Of a DNA stretch of 64,000 bases, positions 11,575 to 50,434 are shown piece after piece. Every line of letters begins with the position of its first letter. Within the stretch, counting starts at the first letter, position 1. The stretch is from Pseudofrankia sp. DC12 (GTDB lineage Bacteria > Actinomycetota > Actinomycetes > Frankiales > Frankiaceae). The notes below the pieces were generated by a model. The model searched no databases. It worked only from the letters and a program-made list of their open reading frames with translations, and was not told where the DNA came from. The translations under genes and the position numbers were made by a program. The stretch is taken from the NCBI RefSeq assembly GCF_000966285.1, contig NZ_KQ031391.1:4946383-5010382 (forward strand). The letters are read 5' to 3'.

Positions 11575-12390
11575 TTACACCGGACGCGGCACCCGGCCGC
11601 CAGCCTGGCTCACGGCAGCTGGATCGAGCCGCACGGGGGCGTGGCCGCGGGCCGCGTTCACCACCGCGTCAACCGCCAGGGCGACGAGGTCCGGGGCGTC
11701 CTTGTGCACAAAGTGCCCGGCGTTGTCGGCGATGATCTGGGTGGCTGCTGTCCGGGCGGCCCATTCCCGTTGGAACGTCTGCCACCTGGCGTCGACCTCG
11801 GCAGGGGACAGCGGCAGCAGGCGGTCCGGATTGGTCATGCGCAGCCGGGTGCCAACCGCCGAGGTAACCACTACGGCGGGCACCCGTGCCGGGGGCGGGG
11901 GAGCCCGATGTTCTGCCGCGCAGGCGACGATGTCGAAGTGGATACTGCCGGCCCCGTGGTCGGCGGCGACGAGTACGGGGTTGGCGCGGTCGAGCAGCGC
12001 GCTTGGCTCCGTCGGGTCGACCAGCACCAGCCCGGCTGTCTCTTCGGGCCAGCGTGCTAGGTATGCCTCGACTATCAGTCCGCCGATCGCATGGCCTACC
12101 AGCACCCGTGGTGAGGGGACGGCTGCCTCGCTCAGAAGGGTTCGCAGCTGAGCGGCGGCCCAGCTCGCCGGTCGCGGCGTCTCGGCCAGGCGGGGCGGGA
12201 GAGGGCCGCTGCCCCCCTGCGCCGGGCGCCCATAGGCGACCCGCGTCGTCGTGACCCTCGCCGCGGCCAGGGCTCCATCCCACTCGCTCGGGCCGGCGGC
12301 GAGGCCAGACACGAACACCACCGGTGGTACGCCACCTCCAGTGATATCGACGGCCAGCTTGTAGCCACCCACGTCGACCAGTTCCGCCAT
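11575..12390 (-). CDS. Alpha/beta hydrolase-fold protein with Ala at the nucleophile position
   Basis: This 271-residue protein has a clear alpha/beta hydrolase fold: the oxyanion strand VVFVSGLAAG, the nucleophile elbow, an acidic strand LVLVDPTEPS and a C-terminal DNAGHFVH with the catalytic His. The elbow reads VLVGHAIGG (Ala101, codon GCG) where active enzymes have G-H-S-x-G. The catalytic Ser is therefore missing, although the His and acid remain. It may be a non-catalytic binding protein or use another residue. The ATG is preceded by GTAGGAGGCAGC. It is divergent from the large signalling gene at 12650, with 259 bp between them that contain short repeats and no other gene. Confidence 0.85.
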   Translation of the reverse strand: MAELVDVGGYKLAVDITGGGVPPVVFVSGLAAGPSEWDGALAAARVTTTRVAYGRPAQGGSGPLPPRLAETPRPASWAAAQLRTLLSEAAVPSPRVLVGHAIGGLIVEAYLARWPEETAGLVLVDPTEPSALLDRANPVLVAADHGAGSIHFDIVACAAEHRAPPPPARVPAVVVTSAVGTRLRMTNPDRLLPLSPAEVDARWQTFQREWAARTAATQIIADNAGHFVHKDAPDLVALAVDAVVNAARGHAPVRLDPAAVSQAGGRVPRPV

Positions 12391-12456
12391 GCTGCCTCCT
12401 ACAGTACGAGATCACTAAATTACGGCCCGTGATGGCTGATGGCCGGGCATTTCCGC

Positions 12457-12490
12457 ACCGCGAGCGCCACCGCGAGCGCCAGCGCGAGCC
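12457..12490. repeat. 12-bp tandem repeat, about 2.8 copies
   Basis: The unit ACCGCGAGCGCC occurs twice exactly (12457-12468 and 12469-12480) and then partly, with changes, to 12490. It lies in the gap between the divergent hydrolase and signalling genes. It may only reflect GC-rich slippage; no function is apparent. Confidence 0.5.
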
Positions 12491-12649
12491 CATAGTTCCC
12501 CAGACGGGGGGGTGCGTGCCGAGGCCGGGGCGCGCTCGCTCAGTGGAGCACCGTCGCCGCGTGGTTGTGGGTCAGCGGCCCGTTCGGGGCCGCCGAGGCA
12601 GGGCAGATTGACACGTATGCAGCTCGTGACGTGAAGTGAGGGTCGACAT

Positions 12650-15600
12650 ATGGGGTCCCCGAGGATGACACCGGGCCCGGATCCGCCGGTGGCGATGCGG
12701 GTGGCGGTGCTGCATGAGACGCAGCGGTCTCGGGTCACTCGGCTGGTGTTCCCGGCCGGGAGTGTGATCCGGAAGGAGCCGCTGGGGCCCGGGGCGCAGC
12801 AGCGGCTGCGCCATGAGGTGGAAATCCTCGGCCGGCTGTCCGGGGTCGAGGGGCTCGTGCAGCTGGTGGCTGGAGCGCCGCCGTACCCGGGGTCGATGCT
12901 GCTGGCCGATGTCGGCGGAACGGCGCTGTCCGCGCGGGCCACCCCACTGGACCCGGCTGAGCTGATCAAGCTGGCCGAGCTGCTCGCGCGGGCGATCGGG
13001 GGGATGCACGGCCGGGGTGTGGTGCATCGGAACATCAACCCGTCGAACATTGTCGTGAGCGAGGACCAGGGCGCGCCATACCTGACTGATTTCGCACTCG
13101 CCACCACCTTCATGACCGTTCAGCCTGGCTTCATGCATCCCAGCGAGATTGTCGGGACGGTGCCGTACCTGGCGCCGGAGCAGACCGGCCGGACCGGTCG
13201 CCCGGTGGACCAGCGGGCCGATCTGTACGCGCTGGGGGCGACTCTGTACGAGCTGGCGACCGGCGCGCCGCCGTTCGGCACCGAGGACCCGCTGCGGATG
13301 ATTCATGATCATCTGGCGCGGGTGCCGGCGCTGCCGGCGGCGGTGAACCCGGCGGTGCCGGGCGGCCTGTCGGCGATCATCATGCACCTGCTGGAGAAGG
13401 AGCCGGACGACCGCTATCAGAGCGCCGAGGGGCTGGTGCACGATCTCACCTTGGTAGGCCGTGGCCTCGTCGTGGTGCATCCGGGCGAGCATGACTTCCC
13501 CGTACGACCGCTCGCGCCGTCCCGGCTGGCTGGGCGTGAGGAGGAGATCGGCGAGCTGGGCGCGGCGTTCGCCGCGGCAGTAGAGGGCCGCTGCCGCGGG
13601 CTGCTCGTGGGCGGGGCTCCGGGGGTGGGCAAGACGGCGCTGGTCAATGAGCTGCGGCCGATCGTGGCTGGTGTCGACGGTTGGTTCGTTGCGGGCAAGT
13701 TCGACCAGTATCGGCGTGACCGGGAGTTTGACGGAGTCTGGCAGACGTTCCGCACGCTGGGCCGGCTGTTGTTGGCCGAGCCGGAGGCCGACCTGGTCGA
13801 CGTGCGGGAGCGGATACTGCGGGCGCTGGGACCCAACGCCGGGCTGATCGCCGCCCTGGTGCCGGAGCTGGCGGCGCTGGTGAGGGTCCCTCCCCGGGCC
13901 GGGGATCCGATGACCGCGCAGGCGCGAGTGCAGCGGACCGGGGTGGCGATCCTGCGTGCGGTCGCTTCTCGGAAGCGGCCGGTGGTGGTGTTCGTCGACG
14001 ATCTGCAGTGGGCCGGGCGGACACCGCTGGGCTTCGTCGACCTGATCCTCGGTGGCGAGGAAGAAGTCGAGGGGCTGCTTCTGGTCGGCGCCTACCGGGA
14101 GAGCGACGTGGATGCCGCTCATCCGCTGGCGCCGATGCTCGCCCGCTGGCAACGTCAGCCGGCCGGCCTTTACCACCTGCGGCTGGCCGACTTGACGCCG
14201 GATGGCCAGGCGGCCATGGTGGCCGACCTGCTGCGCCTGGCCCCGAAGCCCGCCGCCGAGCTGGCGCGGCTGATCGCGCCGTCCACCGGCGGCAATCCGT
14301 ACGACACGGTGGAGCTGCTCAACTCGCTGCGCCATGACGGAGTCCTGATCCTCGGCGAGCGCGGGTGGCGATGGGACCAGGCCACGCTGCGCGGCCGGCT
14401 GGGGCGCGTGGACGTGACCGAACTGGTCGCCGCGCGCCTGGCCACGTTGCCGCCGGCCACCAGGGAGGTGCTGACGGTGATGGCGTGTCTGGCGGGACGG
14501 GTGGAACTGGGCCTGCTGGAAGCCGCGACCGGGCTGGCGGCGGACGAGGTCGAGCGGCGGCTCACGCCCGCGTTCGCCGCCGGCCTGCTGGTCCTGGAGT
14601 CCGACGGCCGGCCCGGCGTGCGGTACCAGCACGACCGGGCGCGGGAGTCCGTCCTGCGCTGCCTCGGCTCGCAGGCACTGGGCGCCACGCGGTTGCGGCT
14701 GGCCCGGCGCCTCGCGCAGCGGCCCGAGTTCTTCGCCGTGGCGGCGGAGCAGTACCTGTTCGTGGCCGATGCCGTGCACGGCGCCGCCGAACGGCAGCTG
14801 ATGGCAAGGCTCTTCCGCCAGGCCGCCGGCGAAGCCCGGCTGCTGAGCAACTACCCGCTCGTGGAGCGGCTCCTGACCGCGGCGGTGGCGCTCGTCGACC
14901 CAGCCGACACCGACGAGCTGGTCACCCTCCAGACCGGCCGTCACGCCGCCTTGTACAGCCTTGGCCGGCTGGAGGAGGCCAACCAGGTCTACCAGACCAT
15001 CTGCCGGCTGTGTACCCACCCGGCCGGGCGCACGGCCGCCACCGTGGTGCAGGTCAGCAGCCTCACCAACCAAGGGCCTGCCGGCGAGGCGATGCGGCTC
15101 GGCCTCGACCAGCTGCGGCAGCTCGGCTTCGCCGTCCCGGACCGCGGCCGCCTTGACCCCGAGATCGACCGCGGGCTCGACACGCTTTACCAGTGGATTG
15201 ACCAGACCAGCGAAGCCGACGATCTGCGGCGACCGAAGATCACCGACTGTTCGCGGCTCGACGCCATGAAGCTCATCGACCGGCTCACGCAAGCGGCGTA
15301 CCTCTGTGACCAGCCGATGATGACCTGGCTGACGCTGCAGGCGGTGGAGATGTGGGCACGCTGCGGCCCGGATCCGGCCATGGTCGGCCCAGCCAGCCAT
15401 GCCGCGGATGTGACCATCGCCCGCAGGCACGACTATCACACCGGGTATCGCATCGCGCGGCGGATCCTCGCTGTCGCTCGGGCCCGCGGTTATGAGCCTG
15501 AGGTGTGGCAGGCGCAGTTTGTGTACCTGATCAGCATCGGCCACTGGTTCGACCCGCTCGAGGACAGCCTGCCCGCGGCACGCCGCGCGCTGGAGGGCCT

Positions 15601-17584
15601 GATCCAGGGGGGTGAGCTGCAGTACGCATGCTGGAACCACTACGTGCTGCTGAGCTGCCTGCTGGACAGCGCGCCGTCGCTTGACAGCTTCGCCGCCGAG
15701 GTCGACGAGGCACTCGCACTGGCTACCCGCACCGGTAACGGCCGAGCCGAGGACACGTACCGGCAGTACCGCCAACTGGCGAGGGCACTGCGCGGCGAGA
15801 GCACCGAATCGCCGGCCGACGAGGCGGCTCAGCTGGACATGCTGGCCGCCAACCCGATCGCCGTCGTTGACCTGCACATCAGCCGGGCGCTCGCCGCGGC
15901 CATCCTCGACCACCAAGGTGAGCTGGCCCGGCACACGGCGGCCATGATGCCGTTGCTGCCGATCACCGAGGCCCAGTACAGGGTGGTGGTGGCACGCCTG
16001 CTGCGGGCACTGGCGTTGGCAGGGCAGGCCCGCACGGCACAACCGGGCCAACGCGGCGCCATGCTGGCCGAGCTGGACTTGTTGGTCGAGTGGCTGGCCT
16101 CGCGTGCCGTCGACGCGCCCGTCAACTTCCTGCACCTGCTACGTCTGGCGGAGGCCGAGCGGGCCTGGGCCGCCGGCGACTTCCGCGAAGCGGCGCACGC
16201 CTTCGACGTGGCACAGCGGGAGGCATACGCCCAGGTACGCCCGTGGCACCAGGCGCTCATCCTGGAACGCGCCGCGCGGTTCTACTCGGCCCACAGCATG
16301 GAGCGAGCCGGCCATGTGCTGCTTGCCGAGGCCCGCGGCCAGTACCTGGCCTGGGGGGCCACCGCCAAGGTCAGCCAGCTCGACTGGGCTCACCCGACGC
16401 TCCGGGCCGAGCCCGCCGGGATGAATCCGTTCGTGCGGCCGCCGGCGGGGTCCGCCGCCCGCGTCCCCGCCGTCACCACGGGCACCCTCGACCTGCTCGG
16501 CGTCGTCGCCGCCTCCCAGGTCCTCAGCTCCGAAACCAGCATCGACGGCCTGCGGGCCAGAGTCGCGGGAATCCTGTCCGCGATGACCGGCGCCACCAGC
16601 GTCCACCTCCTGCTCCGCGACCGCGATCAGCGCACGTGGTCGGTACCGGTGGACGACCACGGCACCGTCACGCTCGACGAGGCCGCCCGGCGGCGCCTGC
16701 TCCCACCCTCGGCCATCCGGTACGCCGAACGCACCCACGAACCGGTCGTCGTCGCCGACGCCACCCGCGACGACCGGTTCAGCCGCGACCCCTACCTCAC
16801 CGACCTGGACCGCTGCTCCCTGCTGGCCATCCCCATCATGATCCGAGGCGAGCTGCGCGCGATGCTGCTCCTGGAGAACCGGATGATCCGCGGCGCGTTC
16901 ACCACCGAACGCCTCGAGGGAATCATGCTCATCGCCGGGCAGCTGGCCGTCTCGCTCGACAATGCCCTGGTCTACGCCTCGCTGGAACACAAGGTCGCCG
17001 AACGAACTCGGCAACTCGCGGCCGCCAACCAGCAGCTCGCCGCTGCCAACGAGCGGCTCGGGCAGCTCTCGATCACCGACCCGCTGACCGGCCTGGCCAA
17101 CCGGCGCCGGCTCGACGAGGTCCTCGACGCCGAATGGCACAGAGCCCTCCGCAACGCCGCACCCCTCGCGCTGGCAATCGTCGACATCGACCACTTCAAG
17201 CTCTACAACGACCACTTCGGCCACACTGCCGGCGACCGATGCCTTCAGCGGGTCGCCACCTGCCTGGCCGGCAACGCCCGCGGCACCGCCCTGACCGCCC
17301 GCTACGGGGGCGAGGAGTTCGCCGTCGTGATGCCCGGCGCCGACATCGCCACCGCCACCCGCATCGCCCGGCGAATCCGCGCCGCGGTTGAGGAGGCCGC
17401 TGAACCCAGCCCGATGGTTCCCTACCAGATTGTCACCGTGAGTATCGGCGCCACGTCGGTCGTTCCTGCTCCCGAGGACAGGCTGAAATCACTCGTCGAC
17501 CTCGCCGACGCCGCGCTGTACCACGCCAAAAACAGGGGACGGAACCGGGTGGAAGCTGAGCTCCCGGGCACCGCATCGGAATAG
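12650..17584 (+). CDS. Pseudokinase-AAA ATPase-GAF-diguanylate cyclase multidomain protein
   Basis: This 1644-residue cytoplasmic protein combines several signalling modules. Residues 1-275 are a Ser/Thr-kinase-like domain with no recognisable glycine loop. The catalytic loop reads HRNINPSNI (Asn128 where the catalytic Asp belongs) and the metal loop reads DFA (147-149). APE is intact. Residues 290-560 form an AAA_16-type ATPase with Walker A GGAPGVGKT (321-329) and Walker B VVVFVDDLQW (445-454). A long helical, TPR-like region spans about 660-1270. A GAF domain lies at about 1290-1450. A Leu/Ala/Gln coiled coil leads to a GGDEF domain with active motif GGEEF from residue 1553. The usual RxxD inhibitory site reads RGTA. 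The layout recalls PknK/HstK-type proteins, with a cyclase as output. The ATG follows GTGAGGG. Confidence 0.9.
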   Translation: MGSPRMTPGPDPPVAMRVAVLHETQRSRVTRLVFPAGSVIRKEPLGPGAQQRLRHEVEILGRLSGVEGLVQLVAGAPPYPGSMLLADVGGTALSARATPLDPAELIKLAELLARAIGGMHGRGVVHRNINPSNIVVSEDQGAPYLTDFALATTFMTVQPGFMHPSEIVGTVPYLAPEQTGRTGRPVDQRADLYALGATLYELATGAPPFGTEDPLRMIHDHLARVPALPAAVNPAVPGGLSAIIMHLLEKEPDDRYQSAEGLVHDLTLVGRGLVVVHPGEHDFPVRPLAPSRLAGREEEIGELGAAFAAAVEGRCRGLLVGGAPGVGKTALVNELRPIVAGVDGWFVAGKFDQYRRDREFDGVWQTFRTLGRLLLAEPEADLVDVRERILRALGPNAGLIAALVPELAALVRVPPRAGDPMTAQARVQRTGVAILRAVASRKRPVVVFVDDLQWAGRTPLGFVDLILGGEEEVEGLLLVGAYRESDVDAAHPLAPMLARWQRQPAGLYHLRLADLTPDGQAAMVADLLRLAPKPAAELARLIAPSTGGNPYDTVELLNSLRHDGVLILGERGWRWDQATLRGRLGRVDVTELVAARLATLPPATREVLTVMACLAGRVELGLLEAATGLAADEVERRLTPAFAAGLLVLESDGRPGVRYQHDRARESVLRCLGSQALGATRLRLARRLAQRPEFFAVAAEQYLFVADAVHGAAERQLMARLFRQAAGEARLLSNYPLVERLLTAAVALVDPADTDELVTLQTGRHAALYSLGRLEEANQVYQTICRLCTHPAGRTAATVVQVSSLTNQGPAGEAMRLGLDQLRQLGFAVPDRGRLDPEIDRGLDTLYQWIDQTSEADDLRRPKITDCSRLDAMKLIDRLTQAAYLCDQPMMTWLTLQAVEMWARCGPDPAMVGPASHAADVTIARRHDYHTGYRIARRILAVARARGYEPEVWQAQFVYLISIGHWFDPLEDSLPAARRALEGLIQGGELQYACWNHYVLLSCLLDSAPSLDSFAAEVDEALALATRTGNGRAEDTYRQYRQLARALRGESTESPADEAAQLDMLAANPIAVVDLHISRALAAAILDHQGELARHTAAMMPLLPITEAQYRVVVARLLRALALAGQARTAQPGQRGAMLAELDLLVEWLASRAVDAPVNFLHLLRLAEAERAWAAGDFREAAHAFDVAQREAYAQVRPWHQALILERAARFYSAHSMERAGHVLLAEARGQYLAWGATAKVSQLDWAHPTLRAEPAGMNPFVRPPAGSAARVPAVTTGTLDLLGVVAASQVLSSETSIDGLRARVAGILSAMTGATSVHLLLRDRDQRTWSVPVDDHGTVTLDEAARRRLLPPSAIRYAERTHEPVVVADATRDDRFSRDPYLTDLDRCSLLAIPIMIRGELRAMLLLENRMIRGAFTTERLEGIMLIAGQLAVSLDNALVYASLEHKVAERTRQLAAANQQLAAANERLGQLSITDPLTGLANRRRLDEVLDAEWHRALRNAAPLALAIVDIDHFKLYNDHFGHTAGDRCLQRVATCLAGNARGTALTARYGGEEFAVVMPGADIATATRIARRIRAAVEEAAEPSPMVPYQIVTVSIGATSVVPAPEDRLKSLVDLADAALYHAKNRGRNRVEAELPGTASE

Positions 17585-17661: not shown

Positions 17662-18729
17662 TCATGACGAGCGAAGTCCGAGAACCGGTGTAAGCCTCGG
17701 GGGTGCCGTGCTGTGGCGGATGACGAGCTGGGGTGTCATCGAGGTCTGCATAGCACGGTTCCGATGGCCTTCCACTCGCTCGATGAGCATCTTCGCGGCG
17801 GCGGCCCCCATTTCCTGGCCGGCCTGGTCGACGCTGGTCAGCTGTACGGGGGCAAGGGCCGCGATGGCGGTGTTGTTGTAGCCGACAAGGGACAGTTCCT
17901 CGGGGACGCGTACGCCCAGTTGGTGTGCCGCGCGGTAGACGCCGAGGGCGGCCACGTCCGCGCCTGCCATGATGGCCGTAGGAGGTTCTGCGCTGGTAAG
18001 CAGCTGCCTGCCTGCCTTGTAGCCGCCGTCGTCTGAGTAGGCAGTGCGACAGACGCGGGCGTGCTCCTGCAGATCGTGGCCGCGCATCGCCTCCAGATAG
18101 CCGTTTGTAAGCACAACCTCCGGAGTGCGCTTCCACAGGCTCACCTTGGTCCCTGCTGCCGCTACCAGCGCGATGTCGCGGTGGCCGAGGGACACGAGGT
18201 GATCCACCACGAGTCTCGCGCCGACAGCGTCCGCATCCACGACCGAGTCATGAACCTCGGCGGTGTCGTGGTGGCCGATGACGACCGTAGGAGTGGCGGC
18301 GGCCATGGTGAGCACTTCGCTGCGCGGGGTTCCGGGCGCGATCAGGATCAGGCCGTCCATCCGGCGGTCGACCATGGAGCGGATCGTCTTGGCCTGGTCA
18401 TCAGCACCGAATCCGGCCGCCCCGAGCAGGACGGTGTAGTCACTGTCGCGTAATTGGTCGTGGACTCCGTCAAGGATGTCGGCGAAGAAGGGGTTGCGGA
18501 TGTTGTCCAGCAGCACGCCGATCGTATAGGTGCGTCCACGCATGCCGCGCGCGGCGGCGTGGGGTCGGTAGTCCAGTTCGGCCATCGCCGCACGAACCCG
18601 CTCCTGCATCGCGGGGCTCACCCCGTAGGCGTTGCGCAGCACTTTGGAGACCGCGGGGGTCGAGACGCCGGCGTGCCGGGCAACATCTGCGATCGTGACG
18701 CGTTTCGTTCGTTTCGGCGACGAGTCCAT
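17662..18729 (-). CDS. LacI family transcriptional regulator
   Basis: This 355-residue sugar-responsive repressor has the LacI HTH at residues 11-60 (VTIADVARHAGVSTPAVSKV) with the hinge, then a periplasmic-binding-like effector domain (TYTIGVLLDNIRNPFFADIL onward). The length is normal. It is divergent from the sugar ABC operon that begins at 19110, so it probably represses that operon and itself in the absence of an inducing sugar, likely a rhamnoside or rhamnose given the GH78 gene. Candidate operators with an AACG core occur at 18757, 19038 and 26722. Confidence 0.9.
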   Translation of the reverse strand: MDSSPKRTKRVTIADVARHAGVSTPAVSKVLRNAYGVSPAMQERVRAAMAELDYRPHAAARGMRGRTYTIGVLLDNIRNPFFADILDGVHDQLRDSDYTVLLGAAGFGADDQAKTIRSMVDRRMDGLILIAPGTPRSEVLTMAAATPTVVIGHHDTAEVHDSVVDADAVGARLVVDHLVSLGHRDIALVAAAGTKVSLWKRTPEVVLTNGYLEAMRGHDLQEHARVCRTAYSDDGGYKAGRQLLTSAEPPTAIMAGADVAALGVYRAAHQLGVRVPEELSLVGYNNTAIAALAPVQLTSVDQAGQEMGAAAAKMLIERVEGHRNRAMQTSMTPQLVIRHSTAPPRLTPVLGLRSS

Positions 18730-41793: not shown

Positions 41794-42005
41794 TCGAACC
41801 TTCCGACTAGACAGGTGACCGGGCGAATTCTGTTACGTCCTTCAGTCGGCCGTCAACTGAGTGCAACATGCGATCCGCTCGTGGCCGGAGTGGCCGGATG
41901 ACTCCCGGAGCTTGGTCGTCGTGGCCCCGCCAGATCCAGAAGTGCCTTCGCTGGATCACGAGCCGCCAGCGGGGCGTGGGTAGACTTACCCTGGGGTGTT
42001 GTGTC

Positions 42006-43679
42006 ATGGTCCGACTACGCAGCGTCCTTGGCGTCACGTCGGCCCCGTGGCGTTCGACCGGCGCGGGTTGGACGCCACGGTTGTTGCGGTACGCCGTCGC
42101 GATCTGCGTGTTGCTCGTCGGGCTGGCCGTCGCATTCGCGGTACTTCTGGAGCCGCGGCACGGCTTGATCGGCACGAACCTGGTCGACGCCATCGCCCAA
42201 GGCGCGGCCCTGGCCGCCTGTTTGTGGACCGCTCGTCGGGTTTGCGGTGCCGAGCGCCGATGGCGGGTGCTGATCGGTATCCAGGCCGGCGGTGGATTGC
42301 TCGGCAGCCTGCTGTTTGTGCTGATGTTGCAGGCTGGGGCCGATGTCAGCGGTCACATAGGCCGCGGCTATGCGTTCTTCCTTGTCAACTACGCGGTGGC
42401 GCTGGCCGGGCTGTTGTCTCTGCCCACGGAGTCGATGGGCGGCCATAGCGGTGCCTACCGCTGGTATGCGATCACTCTGCTGGACTGTGCGCTGGTAGTT
42501 GGCTCGCTCGCCCTTCTGGAGTGGGGGACGGCGCTCGGCGCTTTGGTACGCGCGGATGTTCCCAACCTGACCCAGTTCGTGCTGGCTTTGGCCTATCCGG
42601 TGGGCGGCCTGGTCCTAGCCACGGCGGTCGTGCTGATCGCGAGCTTCCGGCGGCCCCGGTCTCCCGCGGCGCTTGGTTTCCTCGGCCTGGGCCTGCTAGC
42701 CAGCGGGATCACCAGCAACATCTTCGTCTACAGCGTCGCGCACGGCAGGACCGAGTTGCCACCGTGGCTTCTGATCGGCTTCATCATTGCATTCTTGCTG
42801 ATGTTCCTCGCCGTGCTCGTCCCAGTCCCGGCCGCCTCGCGGCCGGACCGCCTCGTTTCGCCCAGCGCGCGGGCGATGTGGATGCACGCCATGCTGCCCT
42901 ACGGGGTCCTCTGCGCGGCGGGGGCGCTGGCTGTTGGCAAGCTGCTCGGCGGCGTTGGACTGGACCGGTTCGAGACTTATGGCATGGTCGGGCTGCTGCT
43001 GGTGGCTTTGGTCCGGCAAATAGTCACGTTGCGGGAGAACACCCAGCTGCTCGCCGCGGTGCGGAAGCGGGAGCGGCAGTTGCACCACCAGGCTTTCCAC
43101 GACCCGCTGACCGGTCTGGCGAACCGGGCGATGTTCACCCGACAGCTGGGGCGGGCGCTCGAACACGACCGTGGTGACCTCGACAATGTCGACGGTCCGC
43201 GGCCGTTGTCCGTGCTGTTCCTGGATCTCGATGAGTTCAAGCAGGTGAACGACACCTTCGGTCACGCCGTCGGAGACGAGCTTCTGAAGATCAGCGCGAA
43301 ACGGTTGCGGGCCGGGACGCGCCCGACGGACACCGTCGCTCGGCTCGGTGGCGACGAGTTCGCCATCATCCTCGCCGGCTGCGGCCCCGTGGATCCCCGC
43401 ATGGTCGGCGAACGGCTCGCGGCGGCGATCCAGGCGCCCTGCCCGCTGGCCGGGCGGCCATACGCCCCTCGGGCTAGCCTCGGCCTGGTCACCCTTGACC
43501 CCGCCAACCTGCCTGCCAGTCCTGACATCCTGCTCCACCAGGCAGACCTGGCGATGTACGCGGCGAAGCGGGAACGGGCGGGCAGGCTGGTCGTCTACCG
43601 GCCCGAGCTGGCCTTACCGACCGCCACTGCGCCGACACCATCATCTCCTGGGTCTCCCGGCGGTGCCAGCCGACGCTGA
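42006..43679 (+). CDS. Membrane diguanylate cyclase (GGDEF)
   Basis: This 557-residue protein has an N-terminal membrane domain with about eight hydrophobic segments (roughly residues 25-340), then a linker helix (RENTQLLAAVRKRERQLHHQ) and a GGDEF domain starting at FHDPLTGLANR. The active site is LGGDEF at about residue 447. The inhibitory RxxD site is present (RPTD, just before). It should make cyclic di-GMP from two GTP at the inner membrane in response to an unknown signal. There is no EAL domain. The start is ATG 42006; in-frame codons upstream lack good sites. A paralogue with the same layout is at 48767-50434. Confidence 0.9.
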   Translation: MVRLRSVLGVTSAPWRSTGAGWTPRLLRYAVAICVLLVGLAVAFAVLLEPRHGLIGTNLVDAIAQGAALAACLWTARRVCGAERRWRVLIGIQAGGGLLGSLLFVLMLQAGADVSGHIGRGYAFFLVNYAVALAGLLSLPTESMGGHSGAYRWYAITLLDCALVVGSLALLEWGTALGALVRADVPNLTQFVLALAYPVGGLVLATAVVLIASFRRPRSPAALGFLGLGLLASGITSNIFVYSVAHGRTELPPWLLIGFIIAFLLMFLAVLVPVPAASRPDRLVSPSARAMWMHAMLPYGVLCAAGALAVGKLLGGVGLDRFETYGMVGLLLVALVRQIVTLRENTQLLAAVRKRERQLHHQAFHDPLTGLANRAMFTRQLGRALEHDRGDLDNVDGPRPLSVLFLDLDEFKQVNDTFGHAVGDELLKISAKRLRAGTRPTDTVARLGGDEFAIILAGCGPVDPRMVGERLAAAIQAPCPLAGRPYAPRASLGLVTLDPANLPASPDILLHQADLAMYAAKRERAGRLVVYRPELALPTATAPTPSSPGSPGGASRR

Positions 43680-48766: not shown

Positions 48767-50434
48767 TTAACTCGTAGGCGGGCCGAGCAGATCGGCCCGA
48801 TAGATGACCAGATTGCCGCTGTGTTCTCGTTTGGCCGCGTACATGGCCTGGTCCGCCTGGTGGAGCAGGACGTCGGGGGTCGCTGGGGTGTTGCCGTCAA
48901 GGGTGACCAGGCCGAGGCTGGCACGGGGGGCATAGAGGTGCCCGGCCAGGAGGCACGGGGTCCGGACGGCGGTGGCGAGCCGTTCGCCGATGTGGTGCGG
49001 ATCGTCGGGCCCGCCGCCGTCAAGGATGACAGCGAACTCGTCGCCACCTAGACGGGCGACGGTGTCGACCGCGCGGGTCTCCGCCCGCAGCCGGTCAGCG
49101 CTGATCTTGAGGAGCTCGTCGCCGGCGGCGTGGCCGAAGGTGTCGTTTACCTGTTTGAAGTTGTCCAGGTCCATGAACAGGACGGACACTCTCACCTCAG
49201 CGGCGTCGGTGTGGGCCTGGGCGGTGGGGACTCGGCTGGGGACGCCGTCGGTGCGGCATGAGAGTGCACGCATCAGACGGCGGGTGAACAGCGTGCGGTT
49301 GGCCAGTCCGGTGAGCGGGTCATGGAACGCCTGGTGGTGCAGCTGCTGTTCGCGGATGCGGATCTCGGCGAGCAGCCGGGTGTTCTCGGCCACGGTGAGC
49401 ATCTGCCGTATCAGGGCCAGCACCACGAGGGCCACCATGCCGTGAGCCTCGAACCGGTCGAGCGGCGCGCCGATGGCCAGCTTGGCAAAGACTACAAATC
49501 CGACGGCGGTGAGGATGGTGTAGGGCAGCGCTGCGTGGACCCACATCGTGCGCGGGCTGGGTGCTGCATACCGGTCGGAGCGCGGACGGGACGGGACCGG
49601 TACCAGCGCGGCGAAGAATATCAGCAGGAACGACAAGGCGAACCCGAGCAGCCGCCAGGACGGAAGAGACTCCCGGCCCGAGGCAGCGATGTAGACGCCG
49701 ACGTCGAAGTTGAGGCCATTGATCAGCAGGCCGGCGGCGAGCAGGGCCAGCGTCGCCGGGGACCGCGGCCGGCGGAAGCAAGCGATCAATACGACGGTGG
49801 AGGCGAGGACCAGGCCGGCGGCGAGGTGGATCAGGTCGAGCCGGAGCGGTGAGGTTACGAGCGCGCCCTTCCGGATGGGTGCGGCGAGCACCGTCTCCCA
49901 CTGCAGCAGGATGATCGCCCCGACGATCAGCAGGCAGTCCAGCACGGTGATCGCACGCCACCGATACTGCCCGCCCCGCCGCCTGGCGCCGTCCCGGTTC
50001 TCTAACGGGTCGGTGGGCAACGACAGCAGCCCTGCCAGAGCCATCCCGTAGAAGACGACGAGCGCGAGGTCGGACCAGACAGAGGTGTCACCGGTGGGGA
50101 CGTGCCCCGCCAGCAACGACGGTGTGATGGCGAGGCTGCCGAACAGCGCGCTGAGGGCCGTGAGGCCAATGAGCGCCCGCCAGCGGCGTTCCGCCCCGCG
50201 CAGGCGTCGAGCGGACCAGAAGCAGGCGGTGGCGGCAGCAGCCTGGGCCACGATATCGACGAAATTCGTGGCGATTCGGGCGGGCTTCAGATCCAGCAGC
50301 ACCGCGAAGGCGACGTCCAGTCCAAAGAGGCCCGAGGCCATCAAGGCGTAAAGGAAGATCAGCGGCGTACTGTCCGCGCCGGGTGGACGCCACGGGATCT
50401 GTGCGCCGTCGACGACACTGCGGAGTCCGGACAT
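48767..50434 (-). CDS. Membrane diguanylate cyclase (GGDEF)
   Basis: This 555-residue protein parallels the one at 42006. About eight hydrophobic segments come first, then the linker ENTRLLAEIRIREQQLHHQ and a GGDEF domain (FHDPLTGLANR, then LGGDEFAVIL). The RxxD inhibitory site is present as RAVD. It should synthesise cyclic di-GMP under product control. Shared segments with the paralogue include ACFRRPRSPATL and the C-terminal LYAPRASLGLVTLD. It converges on the secreted hydrolase gene. The start codon is ATG 50434. Confidence 0.9.
   Translation of the reverse strand: MSGLRSVVDGAQIPWRPPGADSTPLIFLYALMASGLFGLDVAFAVLLDLKPARIATNFVDIVAQAAAATACFWSARRLRGAERRWRALIGLTALSALFGSLAITPSLLAGHVPTGDTSVWSDLALVVFYGMALAGLLSLPTDPLENRDGARRRGGQYRWRAITVLDCLLIVGAIILLQWETVLAAPIRKGALVTSPLRLDLIHLAAGLVLASTVVLIACFRRPRSPATLALLAAGLLINGLNFDVGVYIAASGRESLPSWRLLGFALSFLLIFFAALVPVPSRPRSDRYAAPSPRTMWVHAALPYTILTAVGFVVFAKLAIGAPLDRFEAHGMVALVVLALIRQMLTVAENTRLLAEIRIREQQLHHQAFHDPLTGLANRTLFTRRLMRALSCRTDGVPSRVPTAQAHTDAAEVRVSVLFMDLDNFKQVNDTFGHAAGDELLKISADRLRAETRAVDTVARLGGDEFAVILDGGGPDDPHHIGERLATAVRTPCLLAGHLYAPRASLGLVTLDGNTPATPDVLLHQADQAMYAAKREHSGNLVIYRADLLGPPTS

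Follow-up and report, generated by a model that had tools for sequence, protein, structure and literature searches.

What does a protein kinase fold contribute to a signalling protein once the HRD aspartate is gone, and why should it sit at the head of a chain that ends in a GGDEF domain? The question is raised by one gene in a stretch of 64 000 nucleotides from Pseudofrankia sp. DC12 (the window), for which a fusion of kinase, AAA, GAF and GGDEF domains had been proposed. A Pfam scan of the encoded protein of 1644 aa bore out this fusion within a single open frame, returning Pkinase at residues 41-265 (1e-21), AAA_16 at 292-478 (8e-25), GAF at 1305-1436 (7.5e-10) and GGDEF at 1475-1633 (1.9e-45). 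Relatives align over residues 1-1643, at identities of up to 81 %, which leaves no doubt about the reading frame; a frame or start artefact was ruled out, as these matches begin at residue 1 and the frame is intact. A membrane protein was likewise ruled out on hydropathy, the top 19-residue Kyte-Doolittle mean being 1.57, against 3.07 in a membrane GGDEF protein of the same window, and we infer a soluble, one-protein signalling switch. Our preferred reading, to which we assign a probability of roughly 0.58, is a STAND-gated cyclase in which the pseudokinase acts as a nucleotide- or protein-binding regulatory head. The features of the gene are collected in Table 1. It stands alone, and an operon partner was rejected as both flanking genes lie on the opposite strand; a promoter/terminator consensus scan of 12300-12750 found none, which is uninformative since shuffled sequences were also expected to yield none.

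Table 1. Features of the gene and its two neighbours (positions are those of the window)
Feature	Residues	Position	Strand	Basis
Whole gene: pseudokinase-STAND NTPase-helical-repeat sensor-GAF-stalk-GGDEF; ATG at 12650, stop ending at 17584	1-1644	12650-17584	+	ORF list, Pfam, relatives
Kinase-fold domain	about 17-270	12698-13459	+	Pfam, AlphaFold2, Foldseek
Glycine-rich-loop position HETQRSRV, without glycine	22-29	12713-12736	+	Alignment
Catalytic loop HRNINPSN; Asn128 (codon AAC) at HRD Asp; no Lys at HRD+2	126-133	13025-13048	+	Alignment
DFG region TDFALA; D147 kept, A149 replaces Gly	146-151	13085-13102	+	Alignment
STAND nucleotide-binding domain; Walker A GGAPGVGKT at 13610-13636	about 286-480	13505-14089	+	Pfam, alignment, AlphaFold2, structure matches
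Walker B region VVVFVDDLQWA	445-455	13982-14014	+	Alignment
Rest of STAND core and arm; GGNPYD 547-552, YQHDRARE 659-666	about 481-715	14090-14794	+	Alignment, AlphaFold2
Predicted long helical-repeat (TPR-like) sensor	about 716-1262	14795-16435	+	AlphaFold2, structure matches
GAF domain	1305-1436	16562-16957	+	Pfam
Helical stalk, GAF to GGDEF	1437-1472	16958-17065	+	Sequence; WspR stalk alignment
GGDEF domain; GGEEF 1553-1557	1475-1633	17072-17548	+	Pfam, WspR alignment
I-site region NARGTALTARYGGEEF; R1544 kept, A1547 replaces Asp	1542-1557	17273-17320	+	Alignments
Alpha/beta hydrolase gene, upstream neighbour		11575-12390	-	
LacI-type regulator gene, downstream neighbour		17662-18729	-	

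The N-terminal domain is well predicted as a kinase fold: AlphaFold2 gave residues 1-288 a mean pLDDT of 88.6 and a pTM of 0.87, and the best Foldseek matches of this model were PknB structures, PknB-type enzymes being the nearest kinases of known structure. Its motifs comprise K42 (beta3), E56, H126-R127-N128, N133 and D147-F148-A149, with the APE Glu and the F-helix Asp also kept. Asn128 had been placed at the HRD Asp position, and a 64-row alignment (the distinct rows from 73 long frames, window copy included) confirmed this; the original prediction had named a displaced Asp as the observation that would tell against it, and since the loop HRNINPSN is without any Asp, no such displacement has occurred. 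By a sequence definition of pseudokinases (beta3 Lys, HRD Asp or DFG Asp missing) the domain qualifies through N128 in place of the HRD Asp; K42 and D147 are present. HER3, also with Asn at this position and with the Lys, Asn and Asp kept, has been described as binding ATP at about 1 µM and as autophosphorylating weakly (PMC4718504); by that analogy, nucleotide binding by the head of the window protein is plausible, and its catalytic inactivity likely, though not certain. Binding is made uncertain by a glycine loop without glycine.

One or more catalytic motifs are degraded in many relatives, both in the 64-row alignment and in an incomplete census of 50 Frankiaceae kinase domains, from which some G020 and G021 pieces were left out. 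The N128 column of the alignment holds Asp in 53 rows, Asn in 10 (the window copy among them) and Ala in one, and the third DFG residue is Gly in one of the 64. A set of 87 distinct kinase domains from 151 loci, for which full motif coverage was required and which includes three neighbouring canonical kinases (L051, L052 and L076), gave 75 Asp, 11 Asn and one Ala at the HRD position. Among the Frankiaceae copies the HRD Asp is lost in nine and kept in 41, and the DFG Gly is kept in one; the beta3 Lys, the N133 equivalent, the DFG Asp, the APE Glu and the F-helix Asp are found in 50/50 and the alphaC Glu in 49/50, whilst all 50 are without glycine at the glycine-loop positions and without Lys at HRD+2. 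Because these other losses are near-universal, only the HRD loss is extra in the window copy. DFA in place of DFG, proposed as a further loss, is indeed present at residues 147-149 but does not hold as specific to this protein, the Gly being absent from 49 of the 50 copies; as a family-wide trait, it was ruled out as a meaningful loss here. Three family copies have a canonical HRD/DFG Ser/Thr kinase gene ∼3-6 kb away (L051 3066-3548, L052 15880-16584 and L076 19154-19636), possibly a partner or possibly there by chance.

A head that is purely structural or a docking site, binding no nucleotide and leaving nucleotide sensing to the STAND ATPase alone, would fit the missing loop glycines of all 50 Frankiaceae copies, the additional loss of the DFG Asp in L073, L075, L084 and L088, and the description of some members of the CP1 group of kinases as degraded in several motifs (PMC12599244). 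We nevertheless consider it rather unlikely, as the beta3 Lys, the N133 equivalent and the DFG Asp persist in every Frankiaceae copy while the HRD Asp varies, a pattern that suggests selection on the nucleotide/metal pocket. A domain still working as an atypical Ser/Thr kinase, phosphorylating a partner or its own C-terminus and thereby setting cyclase activity, would be in keeping with the retention of K42, E56, N133, D147, the APE Glu and the F-helix Asp in a well-predicted fold, with the weak autophosphorylation of HER3 (PMC4718504) and with the 41 copies that keep the HRD Asp. Such activity is improbable, however, given that the window copy lacks, all at once, the HRD base, the HRD+2 Lys, the DFG Gly and every glycine of the glycine loop. 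It would also be odd, if catalysis were needed, for the HRD position to have switched between Asp and Asn at least seven times on a 63-row tree (L031 left out; L031 and L061 are the same truncated protein) and at least six times on a 66-row tree (domains of ≥ 55 % identity, kinase columns excluded, two short frames left out), numbers that are minimum changes of state and not proven losses, on trees from quick searches with many weak forks. By a rough pairwise estimate (simple count), the kinase domain is constrained and not decaying, with dN/dS values of 0.33 against an 81 %-identical sister and of 0.27 and 0.37 against two others. Values in the other folded domains and the stalk ranged from 0.06 to 0.52, the 0.37 of the GGDEF domain not being below that of the kinase domain, and in the first 17 residues from 0.33 to 1.08, the latter resting on 15 codons.

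Different lineages have lost different catalytic residues, judging from the differing motif states of Fischerella, proteobacterial and actinobacterial proteins: HKD and DFG are both kept in a Fischerella HstK-type protein, the four HstK-type proteins from proteobacteria combine GFG with a retained HxD Asp (HKD three times, HGD once), and the 13 relatives with another output have DFA in 11 cases, GFG in L073 and GFE in L075. Set side by side, L124-L128 and L015-L092 appear as opposite routes of kinase degeneration within one family, the proteobacterial proteins having kept HxD with GFG, and most of the actinobacterial ones the DFG Asp, as DFA or DFE. The sole Frankiaceae copy of the 50 with both HRD and DFG is L149 (G031:C1:6594918-6600488), whose match falls in two pieces inside one open frame of 1710 aa.

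The AAA part that follows the head is predicted to be a STAND switch, MalT/Apaf-1-like, with a helical-repeat sensor. No sequence match of residues 286-1290 to any PDB chain was found at 0.01. The AlphaFold2 model of this region (mean pLDDT 89.6, pTM 0.83) matched the STAND-TPR protein 6mfv (Foldseek 4.7e-11; VIA Z 18.9, rmsd 9.9 over 608 residues), the maltose-system chain 8bob, presumably MalT (Z 19.3, rmsd 4.1 over 374), and Apaf-1 3shf (Z 18.1, rmsd 5.2 over 400), and plant NLR NB-ARC domains also match its core. The repeats matched Rap 8rtc (Z 20.3, rmsd 5.3 over 343); since helical repeats score high easily, such Z values being partly generic, the modelled likeness is one of fold only and points to a helical-repeat sensor, not to peptide binding. 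In the predicted fold, residues of about 480-1280, between AAA and GAF, are the rest of the STAND core and the sensor and not a linker, so that the Walker A and B motifs, NOD-type core and helical-repeat sensor expected of a STAND protein are all present. Across 40 rows, one of them the window copy, the Walker A residues G322, G325, G327 and K328 are invariant, as are D450, G548, N549 and H661-D662; T329, D451 and P550 are nearly so. Walker A (GGAPGVGKT, residues 321-329) and GGEEF are intact, as had been stated; the description of this part as an ATPase sensor had missed its predicted STAND nature and the helical-repeat sensor itself.

For the GGDEF domain the closest PDB match was WspR 3bre (1.5e-43, phmmer), with which the metal, guanine and GGEEF motifs align without loss. 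With the sequence features of a diguanylate cyclase (GG(D/E)EF plus metal and guanine motifs) thus in place, the C-terminal domain should make c-di-GMP. The same alignment shows the Asp of the RxxD I-site, intact in product-inhibited cyclases, replaced by Ala (R1544-x-x-A1547). The prediction of a broken RxxD site was therefore correct, but the further claim of an enzyme not shut off by its product is overstated, as R1544 remains and R1501, counting along the alignment, occupies the position of R198, the second I-site arginine of WspR; with only D1547 lost, product feedback in the window copy may be weakened, not abolished. HRN is shared with the 81 %-identical sister (L045/L016), in which RxxD is intact; the window copy therefore probably acquired its I-site change after HRN. 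RxxD is intact in 28 of the 49 GGDEF members of the 64-row alignment and in 30/53 of the second tree set. A Hypr-type GGDEF with cGAMP as product was rejected because the conserved motifs look canonical, NDHFGHTAGD, with the Asp that corresponds to the Hypr Ser position, being intact. In Hypr enzymes, Ser is reported where canonical GGDEFs have Asp (PMC6456294). That the GGDEF end has a chiefly non-enzymatic role in vivo, serving as a c-di-GMP-independent or scaffold output in a drifting copy of an expanded family, could draw on the at least five to six changes of RxxD state on the family trees and on the few copies split over frames in draft genomes (sequencing error possible), but is very unlikely in view of the lossless alignment of the GGEEF, metal and guanine motifs with WspR, dN/dS well below 1 in all folded domains and the intact frame of the window copy.

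STAND proteins are described as passing, upon inducer binding, from a closed ADP-bound state to open ATP-bound multimers (PMC6468293), and WspR as being regulated through its oligomeric state (PMC2270323). In the STAND-gated cyclase that we favour, for which we infer ligand, multimerization, activity and direction of regulation, contacts with the helical-repeat sensor would, in the resting protein, keep the STAND core closed and ADP-bound. An inducer binding to the sensor would allow ADP to be swapped for ATP, and the opened cores would multimerize, bringing the C-terminal GAF-stalk-GGDEF arms of adjacent chains close enough for two GGDEF domains to form a catalytic pair, as in active WspR-like dimers, and produce c-di-GMP. 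The kinase-fold head, with its nucleotide/metal-pocket residues kept and its catalytic base lost, would most likely be an allosteric or docking element on the STAND core, either nucleotide-occupied or partner-bound, and the loss of the I-site Asp in the window copy should weaken product feedback. The structure was predicted in two pieces (residues 1-288 and 286-1290), with the kinase-STAND contacts and the GAF-GGDEF part outside both models.

Across the order, matches were found in 17 of 35 genomes and three of seven genera, with up to 14 candidates scored per genome. Eight near-full-length copies are present in G032, against one copy at 1e-60 in the window's own genome; G032 has the same genus code as the latter, and its copy L016 and the copy L045, from a Pseudofrankia, are one and the same protein. 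In a sample of the class, 3/79 genomes matched at 1e-100, all from the gene's own family; this is a weak test of absence from the rest of the class, as at most six candidates were scored per genome and Catellatospora, Actinoplanes and others carry relatives. The best 80 matches of a genome_contigs scan include full-length GGDEF-ended relatives from Frankia, Pseudofrankia, Parafrankia, Catellatospora, Actinoplanes/Paractinoplanes and Allorhizocola, together with one from Singulisphaera and two gammaproteobacterial ones. Copies split over separate frames were seen at G020:C229, G020:C249 (L043/L078), G021:C112, G021:C198 and G034:C577 (L031, L044 and L061), which points to copies being gained and lost, or to errors in the draft assemblies.

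A GGDEF output is present in 49 of the 64 aligned rows, a share biased upward because the relatives are the best 80 ranked by similarity to a GGDEF-bearing query. The other outputs are mostly histidine kinases by their Pfam domains (HATPase_c in 12, HisKA_3 in 11 and GAF in all of 13 such relatives). Output type requires at least three changes on the 63-row tree, one of them being the truncated L061 and two therefore real. In the second tree set GGEEF/GGDEF is the ending of 48 of the 49 Frankiaceae rows, the exception being the truncated L031. As the search would also catch copies ending in a histidine kinase, a cyclase end appears to be usual in Frankiaceae, at up to 14 scored candidates per genome. 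The output had been called unusual, which it is beside plasmid relatives, where the 40 listed among 4205 matching records end at or before query residue 1454, ahead of the GGDEF domain, but not within Frankiaceae; a protein with kinase, TPR and GGDEF had, moreover, been in print since 2005. This protein of Clostridium thermocellum (1826 aa, kinase, six TPR and GGDEF; PMC1262709), compared here by its description only, resembles the window protein in its N-terminal kinase, repeats and C-terminal GGDEF in one chain.

The description that fits the window protein best is that of a variant of the CP1/HstK-type kinase-STAND proteins, actinobacterial and ending in a cyclase. Relatives have multiple copies of such proteins, and we therefore regard it as an atypical variant within a known family rather than as a system of a new kind. 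CP1 proteins, to which it is likened by their published description, join a kinase to a COG3899 ATPase and often GAF/PAS, with about 40 % of members motif-degraded, and are described as without transmembrane regions and mainly from cyanobacteria and proteobacteria (PMC12599244). The window protein shares the kinase fold, GAF, degraded motifs and, by hydropathy, the lack of a transmembrane region, and its predicted ATPase (AAA_16 and a predicted STAND fold) may correspond to theirs; it differs in its actinobacterial host and cyclase output, and neither GGDEF nor diguanylate occurs in the main text of that review (PMC12599244). HstK-type proteins (trifunctional serine/threonine-protein kinase/ATP-binding protein/sensor histidine kinase) have the same kinase-ATPase-repeats-GAF order and align, in one case across residues 47-1454 with an identity near 30 %, but are annotated with a histidine-kinase end, whereas the window protein ends in GGDEF and gave no histidine-kinase family in the Pfam scan. 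With MalT and PH0952 it shares the predicted NOD core and helical-repeat sensor; the output of MalT is DNA binding, and the window protein instead has a cyclase output and an N-terminal pseudokinase. WspR, the best PDB match of the GGDEF domain and stalk, carries a receiver domain and an unbroken RxxD, in contrast with the Ala for Asp and the STAND/GAF input found here.

The family thus offers paralogues within one bacterial family that have or lack the HRD base and are otherwise alike, with a measurable enzyme activity as the output at the other end, which makes the role of a dead kinase domain in a multidomain switch directly testable. A STAND hub driving a second-messenger cyclase would, in addition, join two well-studied mechanisms. 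Animal membrane guanylate cyclases also carry a pseudokinase beside a nucleotide cyclase in one chain (PMC4718504), but are membrane receptors with cGMP as product, and no common descent is claimed. A bolder and doubtful extension would make the window protein their bacterial counterpart in working principle: the nucleotide-occupied pseudokinase would set the threshold of the STAND hub, which once triggered would assemble many GGDEF arms into a c-di-GMP factory that works in bursts and resists feedback, and the Frankiaceae would have multiplied copies that each answer a different inducer through the sensor.

With 14 matches to GGDEF, two of which look like fragments of a single broken stretch, and 12 to EAL, the genome of the window probably has a well-developed c-di-GMP signalling system. 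Three of its GGDEF genes, the present one included, lie within about 38 kb, the other two encoding similar membrane-type GGDEF proteins in opposite orientation (41868-43679, +; 48767-50434, -). Elsewhere, L013 and L014 (G000:C1:3973132-3973517) are two adjacent pieces of GGDEF sequence with an internal TGA, probably a decayed gene.
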